This document shows, piece by piece, positions 17,506 to 21,372 of a stretch of 38,137 nucleotides of DNA. Under the pieces are notes generated by a model that saw nothing but the letters and a program-made list of their open reading frames with translations, was not told the origin of the DNA and ran no database searches. Positions within the stretch are counted from its first letter, which is position 1; every line of letters starts with the position of its first letter. The position numbers were made by a program, and so were the translations under genes. This DNA is from Terriglobia bacterium (lineage in GTDB: Bacteria; Acidobacteriota; Terriglobia; Bryobacterales; Bryobacteraceae), in assembly GCA_010084195.1 (NCBI GenBank), contig RGPS01000034.1:1-38137 (forward strand). The letters run 5' to 3'.

Positions 17506-17910
17506 CTACTTTTGGCTCTCTATATAGGCTTTGATCGTGGCCTCGTCCACCGCGCCCACCGTCGCGCAGAAGTACCCGCGTGCCCACATATGTTGTCCCC
17601 AATATCGCTTTCGCAGGTCCGGAAGCTCCGCCTGCAAATGTCGGCTCGACCGGCCTTTGATGTACTGCGCCAGCTTCGCCGGCGACAATATCGGAGGTGC
17701 CGACACCAGCATGTGTATATGATCCGGCGACACTGCTCCCCGTATGATCACCACGTCCCGCGCCTGGCAGATCTGGCGGATCAGGTCGCGCACACGCTCA
17801 GCTACTCGCACGCGCCGTATCTTATACCTATACTTTGTGCAGCAGATTAAGTGATACTTCAGCTCGAACACCGCGTGCGCGCTATGCGTGTATGCCGCCA
17901 TTTCCCCCAT
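17506..17910 (-). CDS. tnpA: IS200/IS605 family transposase TnpA
   Basis: A 134-residue Y1 HUH transposase. The metal-binding HIH is at residues 64-66 (SPDHIHMLVSAP) and the catalytic Tyr is at 129 in the last helix (ATIKAYIESQ). The N-terminus HAVFELKYHLICCTKYR and the WARGYFCATVG segment are typical. Length is normal, so the protein may be active. The ATG at 17910 has an AAGG site 6-7 nt upstream. It overlaps the end of the cheX-like frame by 29 nt. The hairpins around it also leave open a REP-associated (RAYT) relative. Confidence 0.9.
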   Translation of the reverse strand: MGEMAAYTHSAHAVFELKYHLICCTKYRYKIRRVRVAERVRDLIRQICQARDVVIIRGAVSPDHIHMLVSAPPILSPAKLAQYIKGRSSRHLQAELPDLRKRYWGQHMWARGYFCATVGAVDEATIKAYIESQK

Positions 17911-18397
17911 TGTCGACCTTCGAAATGGGGCCGCTGAAAGCGGGCCACCTAAAAGGCGGTGGGATTAGACCAGGAGGACGGAGGTAAACGCAAAGGTACA
18001 TCTCGGGCTGATCCGCACCAACTGGAAAGGAATGCGGAAAAGATTCCAGAGCCTCCGTAACAGGAACCGGCACTCCGTACTCAAAGTTTTCGTCCGGCAT
18101 CCACGCCGACATAAAGGTCCCGCATGCCACGTTAGCCAGTTCCCGAACAGTGGCCTCGATTTGTCCGGGCCCAGGCAAGGCAGCTTCACAGGCCAGAAAC
18201 TCGGATGTCATCCTGCTGGTAAGGCCCCTGCTGACCCTCAAGGTGAATTGTCCCCGAATCGGCCCCGTAAACCAGACTGACACCCCAAGGGAGTCTATTT
18301 CGGGTAACGCCTCACCCTGGTAAATGGGCGACATGAAATACATGGTCTCGAGTACCTCAGTCATTGCTTCTGTTATCACGGCTTGTGGAATGTTCAC
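17882..18397 (-). CDS. CheX-like protein with a C-terminus running into the IS element
   Basis: A 171-residue protein. The CheX domain covers about residues 1-140, with E-x2-N at 86-89 (ELAN). The start is GTG at 18397, preceded by GAGG and overlapping the ancestral cheY stop as GTGA. About the last 20 residues (from FRWPAFSGPISK on) are written by IS-end and transposase-leader sequence, so the original C-terminus was probably replaced. Still, the CheX core looks whole. It is a second CheX-like gene beside the one at 15.3 kb. Confidence 0.75.
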   Translation of the reverse strand: MNIPQAVITEAMTEVLETMYFMSPIYQGEALPEIDSLGVSVWFTGPIRGQFTLRVSRGLTSRMTSEFLACEAALPGPGQIEATVRELANVACGTFMSAWMPDENFEYGVPVPVTEALESFPHSFPVGADQPEMYLCVYLRPPGLIPPPFRWPAFSGPISKVDNGGNGGIHA

Positions 18398-18728
18398 TGA
18401 AGGGCCTCGAGAAATGAAAGTAGTTCCCGACGAAGGACCTGCGGCGTAACCGGTTTCATCAGGTAGGTGAAGGCTCCGCAGCCCAGGACTTCGGCGGGCC
18501 TCGCCGGAGCTGGGTGGAGGCGTGCATTTGTTCGATCAGTTCCGAGCCGCTCATCTCCGGCATGTTCAGATTGGTAATGACGAGGTCCGGAACAATGTCC
18601 AGCGCTGTTTCCATACCTTGGCGACCGTTCTTGGCCTCATAGATAGTCGTCTCAAGGCCCGTCATTTGCAACGTCCGGGCGACATAGCGCCGCATTACCG
18701 GCGAATCGTCTACCAGTAGAACTGTCAT
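18394..18728 (-). pseudogene. cheY: Degenerate cheY: Asn at the phospho-acceptor, deletion and frameshift
   Basis: The N-terminal half is a CheY receiver (MTVLLVDDSPVMRRYV, with the acidic pair D7-D8). The phospho-acceptor position in TNLNMPEMSG is Asn53 (codon AAT), not Asp. After MHASTQLR the frame continues to a stop at 18459. A different frame carries the normal CheY end (CGAFTYLMKPVTPQVLRREL), ending in a TGA that overlaps the next start as GTGA. About 13-15 residues around strand beta-4 are absent at the shift. As it stands the gene cannot make a normal CheY. The ATG at 18728 overlaps cheD by 4 nt. Confidence 0.85.
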
Positions 18729-19291
18729 CGTCCGCTCCCTTCCGCGAAGACTTGTATTCGGCCCGGAGCGAGGACACGGCCAGGGGCAGTGCCCTTTCGA
18801 AGATCCCCTTGTCCGGTCCCAAGATCGAGGCGCACGGAGTGGGATTCGTTTCCACCAACGTCTTCGTTGTCCACAAAGATGCCAGCTCTCCAGAACGCCT
18901 TCTTTATGGGCATGCGGTTTCGCTTGCCCATCTCGAAAGATGCCGAATCCGCCATCATGTTGGCCCCTCCGGCCATGCAACACCTGAGTCTGGATTTCGA
19001 AGCCCCGCCGACCTCCAGCCGACGAGGCAGTTCGGGAACCCCTGTATCCACGTAGAGAAAGGGATTTCCAGCGGCCCCCGACGCCGTTCGGTCAATTGCC
19101 GAACCCGGCAGCATCACATGCAGAAGCTCTCCGAGTCTGAGCTTCCAATCCCATGCAACTACGGCAATGCAGGATCCCAGAGCATACGTCGTCAGGGCAC
19201 TTACCGGCCATACTGCCGTCCGGCAATCGCCTACGCCTACCACTACTTCCTGTTGCGTCTGTAGTAGCTGAGGGCTTGAAGATGCAGCCAT
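18725..19291 (-). CDS. cheD: Chemoreceptor glutamine deamidase CheD
   Basis: A 188-residue protein. Thr35, Cys41 and His58 sit in YALGSCIAVVAWD and LLHVMLP with the spacing of the catalytic Thr-Cys-His of Thermotoga CheD (T21, C27, H44). The later GGANMM and EDVGGN motifs are also present. CheD deamidates receptor glutamines and is inhibited or steered by CheC/CheX. It begins directly after the cheR remnant stop (TGA then ATG), with an AGGA site. It looks intact, unlike its neighbours. Confidence 0.92.
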   Translation of the reverse strand: MAASSSPQLLQTQQEVVVGVGDCRTAVWPVSALTTYALGSCIAVVAWDWKLRLGELLHVMLPGSAIDRTASGAAGNPFLYVDTGVPELPRRLEVGGASKSRLRCCMAGGANMMADSASFEMGKRNRMPIKKAFWRAGIFVDNEDVGGNESHSVRLDLGTGQGDLRKGTAPGRVLAPGRIQVFAEGSGR

Positions 19292-20112
19292 TCAGCACTT
19301 CCTGTAGGTCGCCGGCTGAACATAAGTGAGACTTTGCGGCAACCGCAGCAGGGTTTCTGAATGCCCCGTCAAAAGGTGGCCCCCGGGGATAAGTTGTTGC
19401 ACCAGACGCCCCACCAAAAGATCTCTGGTCGGCTGCTCAAAATAGATCATCACGTTTCGGCAGAAAATAACATCGAAGGTTCAAGCTTCCGTACAAGGGT
19501 CCAGGAGATTGAAAGCCCCAAAGCGCATGCAGGAACGAACCTTCCTGGTCACCCGCCACTTCCCTGAGTCCCTGTTGTCCACCTCAAAGAAGAGATTCTG
19601 CCACCCCACCGGCAGAGCTTCCAGACGACTCTCTTCATATTCACCAGCTGTCGCCCTACTGAGGACTGTTCGTGATATATCTGTAGCCGTAATCGCGCAC
19701 CGTACCCCGGCGTCCAGACAGCACATGGCAATTGTGTACGGCTCTTCCCCCGTCGCGCAAGGTCACGAACGAGTCGCGACATCTTCCGGAACAACGTTCC
19801 AACCGCGACCATCCGCATCAACATCGAAGTCTTTTGGACCTCCTGTAAAACGCGGCCTAACTGCATCAGGTTGCGAGACAGAAGAGCATCCCCGACCGGC
19901 CTGGTCTCGCTGCGAGAGAGCTCCGCAACCCGGACGGCACTGGACCTCAGGTCGTGGGGTATCGGCAGCGTAAGGTAGTCATTCAGGGTACTCAGGAGCT
20001 GAGCTGCGCCGGGTCCACCCTCATCGGGGCCCTGGCTCTCCCCGTCAACAGGGGATGTCCCCCTCAGTATTCGCTCAATCGTCGCCGCCGGCAATACGCT
20101 CGTTTCGGTCAT
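19292..20112 (-). pseudogene. cheA'/'cheR fusion remnant with frameshift and internal stop
   Basis: The 5' part (from ATG 20112) ends in a CheA dimerisation-domain segment: LGRVLQEVQKTS, then MRMVAVGTLFRKMSRLVRDLAR. No Hpt domain is seen before it; its first 50 residues are unassigned. The 3' part, in another frame, is the second half of CheR: CATGEEPYTIAM, ATDISRTVLS, FDVIFCRNVMIYF, ending TYVQPATYRKC. The CheA and CheR parts meet near 19745-19760, sharing TGCGCGA. The CheR part has an in-frame TGA at 19481-19483. The kinase core of CheA and the first third of CheR are gone. Neither activity is expected. Confidence 0.8.
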
Positions 20113-20167: not shown

Positions 20168-20551
20168 CTATGATTCCGTCCGGATCGTGAGAATCTGCCC
20201 AACCCGGGTGAGAAGTCGAGCCTCACTGGTTGCAATCCCCAGGCTGGAAGCCACCGTTTCGGCAGCAGAACCGCTGCGAAGCATTTGCAGAGCCTGGGAC
20301 CGCACAGACAAATTCAGGCGCCCGCCCCGAAGAGACTCCTGCGCGCTCACCATCCCGGTCTCGAGCGCATGAAGAGCCTCGCGCAACTCGCTGACTTCAC
20401 TCCCACAGTTTGCCTGCACCCTCTCCACCTCGGTGCGCAGCTCCGTCGCATCACGGTGCCACAAAGTGCGGGCGCGTGACAGCAGCCACAGCGACGTCAT
20501 TGCCGCCGCCAGGCCAAACACACTCATCAACCATCCGGAATCGCTGTTCAT
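20168..20551 (-). CDS. Membrane-anchored DUF2802-like protein
   Basis: A 127-residue protein with one N-terminal membrane helix (about residues 6-26), a coiled coil (about 35-80, RTEVERVQANCGSEVSELRE) and a C-terminal helix-turn-helix-like end (AAETVASSLGIATSEARLL). This layout is that of DUF2802 proteins, which often sit in flagellar and chemotaxis clusters and whose function is unknown. The start overlaps the fliN stop as ATGA. The family name is from layout rather than a recognised signature. Confidence 0.65.
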   Translation of the reverse strand: MNSDSGWLMSVFGLAAAMTSLWLLSRARTLWHRDATELRTEVERVQANCGSEVSELREALHALETGMVSAQESLRGGRLNLSVRSQALQMLRSGSAAETVASSLGIATSEARLLTRVGQILTIRTES

Positions 20552-21372
20552 CTTCCTGCTCCTGCGGTCTTTACTGAGCCATCCATCCCGGTTCGCAACC
20601 GGTCTTCACGGCTTGCCAGATGGGTGACCCGAACCCCGTAATTCCCCTCAACTACAACCACTTCTCCGCGTGCGATCACGCAGTCGTTCACGATCACATC
20701 CACCGGTTCCGTCACGAGCCTGTTCAATTCCACAATTGATCCCGTATTCAGTTTCAGTACCTCCCGAATGGGCAGCACCGTCTTGCCGAAGGAGATAGAC
20801 ACCGGCAAGGCGACATCAAGAAGCAAATCAAACGTCTTGGAAAATGCGACGTCGGAAGTACCGGCTGCCGGGGCGGCACGCGGTTCGTACAAAGCGGCCA
20901 GAACCGCAGACCATGCCACACCAAGCTGCCAGCTGACTTCCCCGCTGCTTGCCGTAAGAAAGGTCGTTGAGACTTCCGGCATGGCCCCGATATCTTCACC
21001 CCGGGCCGAACTCACTTCCTGCTGAACATCGCCCGTCACCCGCATGGCGAGACCACCCATCGTCTGGCCCGCGATCTCAAACCAGGTGGACCGGCAATCC
21101 TCTTCGGACGCAGAATCAATGCCGACGGCGGCAAGTACCATGCTTCCCGCCGCTTCCCACAGATCCCTCCCGACCGCCAGCCATACCCCAGGCTCCGGGC
21201 CTGCAGAGAATGTTTGCTGCCAGACTATCGGTTCGTTCAGGTCTTCTGCACCCGATGACCCGGGCGTCACGGTGAACGTCTGCCCCGTCATGCTGGAGAG
21301 TGATTCCGAAAGCGCAGAAATCAGATGCTCCAGCAGCCGCCCGTTGCCCGTCGATGTATATTCCTGTCCCAT
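20548..21372 (-). CDS. fliN: FliN/FliY-type switch protein with a CheX-like N-terminus
   Basis: A 274-residue protein. The C-terminal third (about 185-260) is a SpoA/FliN domain (DVALPVSISFGKTVLPIREV, EVVVVEGNYGVRVTHL). The N-terminal two-thirds resembles a CheC/CheX fold (about 10-140), but the E-x2-N position reads E-x2-G (EIAG, residues 99-102), so phosphatase activity is unlikely. FliN forms the lower C ring and docks FliH. A second, short FliN is encoded at 28.6 kb. It follows fliA after 37 nt. Confidence 0.82.
   Translation of the reverse strand: MGQEYTSTGNGRLLEHLISALSESLSSMTGQTFTVTPGSSGAEDLNEPIVWQQTFSAGPEPGVWLAVGRDLWEAAGSMVLAAVGIDSASEEDCRSTWFEIAGQTMGGLAMRVTGDVQQEVSSARGEDIGAMPEVSTTFLTASSGEVSWQLGVAWSAVLAALYEPRAAPAAGTSDVAFSKTFDLLLDVALPVSISFGKTVLPIREVLKLNTGSIVELNRLVTEPVDVIVNDCVIARGEVVVVEGNYGVRVTHLASREDRLRTGMDGSVKTAGAGR

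Follow-up and report, generated by a model that had tools for sequence, protein, structure and literature searches.

The window analyzed here is the whole stretch of 38,137 nucleotides that makes up contig C258 of a 6.5-Mb draft assembly (628 contigs, 94.4% completeness) from a genus of Bryobacterales. Its minus strand, on which all features given by window coordinates below also lie, carries a long flagellar operon. Pfam searches identified fliI, fliH, fliG, fliF, flgC- and flgB-like rod genes, fliD, flagellin, fliW, fliM, flgK, flhA, flhB, fliR, fliQ, fliP, flgE and fliK, as well as two fliN-type genes, one sigma factor and one SRP54-type GTPase; fliJ was matched solely below the Pfam cut-off. 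From family knowledge and position, we take the GTPase to be flhF and the sigma factor to be fliA. An intact fliN-type switch gene (20548..21372; Pfam FliMN_C, E = 3.1e-21) and an intact gene for a 127-aa protein (20168..20551; DUF2802 match below the Pfam cut-off) precede a cluster in which cheA, cheR, cheD, cheY and cheX were recognized in various states of preservation.

Comparison with two genomes of the same genus, G017 and G018, in which the region aligns at ~71-73%, showed that the cheA half consists of two pieces, 20112-19909 and 19893-19753, with a deletion between them that is additional to the one at the cheA-cheR junction. The 5' piece (19909..20112) starts with an ATG at 20112 and corresponds to CheA residues 1-66 in G018 numbering (62% identity, E = 2.9e-16). 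The other piece (19753..19893) is the end of the dimerisation domain, from residue ~312 onwards, with 84% identity over residues 312-362 of G018 CheA (E = 7.9e-19). The scar between them (deletion 1, 19893..19909) is in frame; blastn gaps (locus L053 6380 to 7111 against window 19913 to 19890, and locus L054 6874 to 7635 against window 19933 to 19892) and alignment place the breakpoint within 19933-19890. With a net size of 708 nt relative to G017 and 720 nt relative to G018, this deletion accounts for the missing CheA residues ~67-311, that is, the phosphotransfer domain, the linker and the first part of the dimerisation domain.

The remnant is read in an ORF of 187 residues (20112-19549) composed of the CheA N-terminus, the dimerisation helix and an out-of-frame tail. 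A Pfam profile search with this ORF gave zero matches, so that the phosphotransfer, dimerisation, kinase and CheW-like domains of a functional CheA are all absent from it by Pfam, whereas all four are present in the 661-aa CheA of G018. The CheA dimerisation profile was silent at the window and matched in this genome on contigs C114 and C628 alone. Just the last part of the domain remains, and homology must therefore be decided by the intact CheA of the relatives. No intact orthologue of the window CheA was found elsewhere in the assembly, in which the two remaining CheAs share 36% and 42% identity with it.

An earlier note on this DNA had proposed that cheA code is joined out of frame to cheR code, and homology to the CheA and CheR of G018 bears this out. 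On the minus strand, MRMVAVGTLFRKMSRLVRDLAR in the cheA frame passes without a gap into CATGEEPYTIAM in the other frame, that of cheR, at 19761-19753. The junction (deletion 2, 19753..19761) was located by blastn gaps (L053 7248 to 8529 and L054 7773 to 9020, both at window 19753-19761) and by alignment with G017 and G018. Its sequence, CTTGCGCGA, gives L-A-R in the CheA frame and C-A-T in that of CheR; as it fits both, up to nine bases were possibly shared. Deletion 2 has a net size of 1254 nt relative to G018 and 1287 nt relative to G017, and took CheA from residue ~363 to its end, with the kinase and CheW-binding domains, plus CheR residues 1-113. The loss of these domains and of the start of CheR, which had been read from the window alone, was thus confirmed against both relatives. 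The supposed loss of further genes between cheA and cheR was not, since the two open frames overlap in G017 and G018 and no gene originally lay between them. The heptamer TGCGCGA does occur in the window at the junction, as had been pointed out; in the relatives it was seen in G017 at the CheR site only (CTGGCACGA stands at its CheA site) and in G018 at neither. Judged from these bases, the exact form of which comes from one draft assembly, recombination at short homology is a plausible origin of the junction, the parental sequences being gone.

The cheR remnant (19295..19759) comprises CheR residues 114-268 in a frame unlike that of the cheA remnant (66% identity to G018 CheR 114-267, E = 3e-66). 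Of the two halves for which a profile search had been proposed, the CheR half was recognized by Pfam CheR (profile positions 36-190, E = 2e-38) and the CheA half had no Pfam match, an outcome that the earlier note had listed as refuting but that, with just the end of the domain left, gives way to the comparison with intact CheA. Translation shows an in-frame TGA within the cheR remnant (19481..19483), at which the ORF in the cheR frame ends. What is left of CheR thus begins at residue 114, past the N-terminal domain (15-63 in G018), and is stopped inside the methyltransferase part. Downstream, cheD (18725..19291; Pfam CheD, E = 1.7e-19) is an open but fast-changing frame. Comparison with relatives showed cheY (18394..18728) to be broken, with residues 1-88 in one frame and 87-120 in another, and ~40 nt net missing, out of frame. 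The frame of cheX, which encodes a CheX-type phosphatase (17882..18397; Pfam CheX, E = 9e-7, scanned at 17914-18397), is open, with its last codons replaced: the end of the gene continues into inserted sequence. The insertion lies between cheX and the downstream flank and encodes an IS200-like (Y1) transposase (17506..17910; Pfam Y1_Tnp, E = 4.9e-41); it is missing at the corresponding place in G017, as indicated by an alignment gap. This genome holds one full-length copy of the IS200-like element, with partial matches at four other places.

The suggestion that most of the che operon has been lost thus holds for cheA, with two deletions, cheR, with the TGA, and cheY, with the frame break, but not for cheD and cheX, the frames of which are still open. 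A receptor (MCP) gene on contig C238 (L204 903-2731) is also damaged, with frame breaks at 1442/1447 and 2298/2306 followed by a further in-frame stop. The region of this gene is collinear with G018:C255 and G017:C80 (74-75% over ~4 kb), where the frames are open in both, and the receptor probably belonged to the decaying flagellar che cluster. All six neighbouring operon genes, in contrast, are single unbroken frames matching G018.

The order in G018 is flhB-flhA-flhF-fliA-fliN-(127-aa gene)-cheA-cheR-cheD-cheY-cheX, with all five che genes intact. Its contig agrees with the public record CANIHR010000160 (Bryobacterales bacterium RE-9nov16-157) in each of eleven proteins compared. Position, order and orientation are as in the window, the remnants of which are 50-84% identical to G018 in protein; the difference is that cheA, cheR and cheY are broken in the window. 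This supports the earlier view that a full che run once stood at the end of the flagellar operon. G017, the closest relative in both the che and the flagellar tree, shares cheA, cheD, cheY and cheX with the window; like G018 it carries an intact cheA at the same place, without the deletions, as the comparison of the same operon in relatives called for in the earlier note revealed. Intact orthologues at this place were found for all five genes in G018 and for all except cheR in G017. The cheR of G017 is also interrupted, but by a lesion independent of the window's: it is split over two contigs (L053 8827-8964 on C206 and L061 11655-11794 on C154), the joining of which we infer. The 137 bp at one of these contig ends have nine full and one partial occurrence in G017, itself included, and both ends carry inverted TG...CA termini as well as a common CTTCT. 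From these repeats, it looks as if a multi-copy insertion element split the gene.

To compare substitution rates, changes private to the window were counted against those private to G017, with G018 as the outgroup. For cheA, cheR, cheD and cheY pooled, there were 74 amino-acid changes in the window versus 23 in G017 (p = 2e-7), and 110 versus 52 changes at codon positions 1+2 (p = 6e-6), while third positions were nearly even at 106 versus 102. The six neighbouring operon genes (flhB in part) showed 108 versus 109 amino-acid changes, and the che genes of G017 show no excess. By gene, the counts were 17 versus 4 for cheA, 22 versus 7 for cheD, 19 versus 3 for cheY and 16 versus 9 for cheR, the last not significant alone (p = 0.23); cheX had no excess (11 versus 10). 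In a trimmed set, from which stops and sites at most 6 codons from a gap or end were removed, the che pool still gave 55 versus 17 (p = 8e-6) and the operon genes 90 versus 89, with cheA reduced to 5 versus 1 (p = 0.22). Trimmed cheX gave 8 versus 8 at the amino-acid level and a non-significant 20 versus 11 at codon positions 1+2 (p = 0.15). Branch lengths pointed the same way, at 0.243 for the window and 0.133 for G017 in the CheA/R/D tree and at 0.108 and 0.118, respectively, in the flagellar tree. The pooled remnants of cheA, cheR, cheD and cheY thus show the relaxed selection of a pseudogene cluster. The count ratios suggest that roughly a third of the window branch after its divergence from G017 passed without constraint. 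As cheX lacks an amino-acid excess and both cheD and cheX are open, the decay is not uniform.

We therefore conclude, with high confidence, that what stands here is a flagellar chemotaxis cluster undergoing decay, in a genome of a Bryobacterales (Acidobacteriota) genus, with the rest of the flagellar operon intact. The same order and orientation as in G018, with pieces missing, uphold the reading as deletions, and the intact genes of G017 and G018 imply that the window and G017 inherited the cluster from a shared ancestor. The original cheA-cheR-cheD-cheY-cheX run, at the 3' end of the flagellar operon, was inactivated by two cheA deletions, the second extending into cheR, by the cheR stop, by the small out-of-frame deletion in cheY and by the IS200-like insertion where cheX ends. 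Since its kinase, methyltransferase and response regulator are broken, the cluster is not expected to signal to the motor. The cells presumably still build flagella, and the cluster may have become dispensable through a change of lifestyle, or because the chemosensory clusters on C114 and C628 suffice.

It could be argued that a junction joins different strains or collapses a repeat, and that an intact che cluster in fact exists in the organism. Fragmentation of the draft genome into 628 contigs makes such an assembly or binning artefact conceivable; it is nevertheless very improbable. Each of the two junctions is collinear with G018 on either side, several independent lesions are spread over cheA, cheR, cheY and the receptor on C238 with none in the six adjacent operon genes, and a substitution excess limited to the che genes is not producible by an assembly join. 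The earlier note had named a chimera as what would overturn its reading, and the collinear flanks, the separate lesions and the relaxed-constraint pattern make one unlikely.

The remains could instead be in new use, either as the 187-residue ORF (20112-19549) or as CheD and CheX working without the rest. Deletion 1 is in frame, cheD and cheX are open, and the 11 versus 10 amino-acid changes of cheX would suit such a role. We give this scarcely any credence, because the cheA remnant has changed faster than its counterpart in G017 (only 5 versus 1 once trimmed), cheD has done so too, and for cheX itself the trimmed set shows a slight, non-significant surplus of changes at codon positions 1+2. 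Moreover, the ORF has no Pfam match, and no comparable pair of CheA fragments was among the matches listed for the other 18 genomes of the genus.

Least probable is a separate gain of the cluster by each carrier lineage, with the window as a partial gain and not the remains of a full cluster. Such a history would leave the internal gaps, the stop and the accelerated change unexplained, and the window pieces group with G017 and G018, the cheA of which is intact; the evidence in its favour comes from the distribution described below. Joining of the two frames by a programmed frameshift or a recoded TGA was rejected, as most of CheA and the first ~113 CheR codons are physically missing, and so was a cheA-cheR fusion gene, as the parts are in different frames.

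The distribution of the cluster was surveyed across the other 18 genomes of the genus. FlhA was found in 17 of them (in G006 as 51 residues at a contig end) and not in G003. Orthologous cheA was present in 10 (G002, G005, G006 and G012-G018), following fliN on one contig in eight, with the two on separate contigs in G005 and G016. Eight of the ten carry all five che genes; in G005 and G006 (L060, L062), only cheR and cheD were matched beside cheA at E ≤ 1e-5, with no cheY or cheX match, and these clusters are possibly partial losses. Within 8-12 kb beyond the flagellar genes, no che matches were found in G001, G004, G008 (main operon), G009, G010 and G011, a scan that remnants too short for the threshold could have escaped. 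None of these six genomes has a CheA above 42% identity except G008:C200 (51%). In G010, what lies past the 127-aa gene corresponds to the sequence flanking cheX downstream in G013, G014, G018 and G002; the contig of G007 stops after fliN. Additional flagellar loci were seen in G008 (L102 = G008:C200 and L200 = G008:C240) and in G017 (L106 = G017:C105). That on G008:C200 also bears che genes, again arranged A-R-D-Y-X; the contamination listed for G008 is 10%.

In the flagellar tree, certain deep nodes of which are weak (33-67%), the absences fall at three places: G009, the clade of G001, G004, G008 and G011, and G010, sister to the che-bearing G013. Counted by hand, each of three histories needs four events: a single gain and three losses, two gains and two losses, or four gains without any complete loss. 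The interpretation of the six che-less genomes as plain losses was therefore dropped. Independent gains would also agree with the placing of G013, which groups with G014, G012 and G016 in the che tree (96%) and elsewhere in the flagellar tree (86%), and with the rarity of the cluster in more distant relatives. Among 64 named loci of Acidobacteriota that extend 6 kb or more beyond flhA, taken from the best 80 of 582 matches, any CheA was found in two: G018's own record, the only one of the 64 with a same-strand downstream cheA, and L119, with a 44% CheA on the opposite strand. In view of this rarity among those loci, a cluster common to the wider group was rejected. One old gain within the genus is nevertheless favoured, since the carriers share one position and order and the che tree mostly matches the supported groups of the flagellar tree, G013 apart. 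A wider pattern of repeated loss in the genus is likely, though not settled.

Two further CheA clusters were identified in the window's genome. That on contig C114 encodes a CheA with receiver domain, CheW, a protoglobin receptor, CheB, CheR and CheX, and that on C628 a CheA with receiver domain, a receptor, CheB and CheR. Another CheA is present in all seven genomes with the flagellar cluster absent or broken versus 5 of the 10 keeping it (one-sided Fisher p = 0.04, uncorrected for descent, with G005 and G006 represented from fragments only). Receptor matches at E < 1e-36, a line set after the list was seen, occurred in all ten che-bearing genomes, in G007 and in one of the six che-less genomes, namely G008, which has the second che cluster on C200. 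The N-terminal region of FliM binds CheY, and its start, QL(S/T)QxEI(D/N)xVFQ, is kept in 13 of the 16 genomes tried (G018 being outside these), with the cluster present or absent; FliM was not found in the loci of G005, G015 and G016. For the six che-less genomes, the CheY-like matches listed at E ≤ 1e-12 have identities of 27-43%. Another CheY-like protein, with 29-32% identity to the cluster CheY, is encoded at G000:C447:20183-20542, and one was also seen on flagellar contigs of G002, G009, G010, G013, G014, G015 and G016, among which G009 and G010 are without the che cluster. If orthology across genomes is assumed, this protein is a candidate motor regulator.

These observations allow a broader, speculative scenario, which we regard as rather doubtful. 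Lineages of the genus would repeatedly discard the flagellar chemosensory cluster and its receptors, keep a complete flagellum and the FliM N-terminus, and leave motor control to other CheA systems present alongside, so that coexistence would come before selective loss; the window would be an intermediate. In the portions of PMC9321776 and PMC10746217 drawn on here, Campylobacterota and Actinobacteria, respectively, are described that likewise kept flagella while the flagellar chemosensory system was lost or its class switched. As described there, those cases are completed, deeper events, whereas in the window the remains are still in place. The same portions of PMC9321776 favour "loss first then gain" over coexistence for Nitratiruptor, and those of PMC10746217 term flagellated species without any chemosensory pathway very rare and give the origin of the class switch in Actinobacteria as not known. 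Among the titles listed in a literature search that mostly lay outside subscription journals, none dealt with this cluster in Bryobacterales or with its disappearance there.

The window thus presents one operon with intact flagellum genes and, at its end, navigation genes in decay, an ordinary decay that is unusually legible. From the stage caught here one can follow the loss of steering genes by swimming bacteria, and a genus with the cluster intact, decaying and absent in neighbouring species provides a series for reading the order of events.
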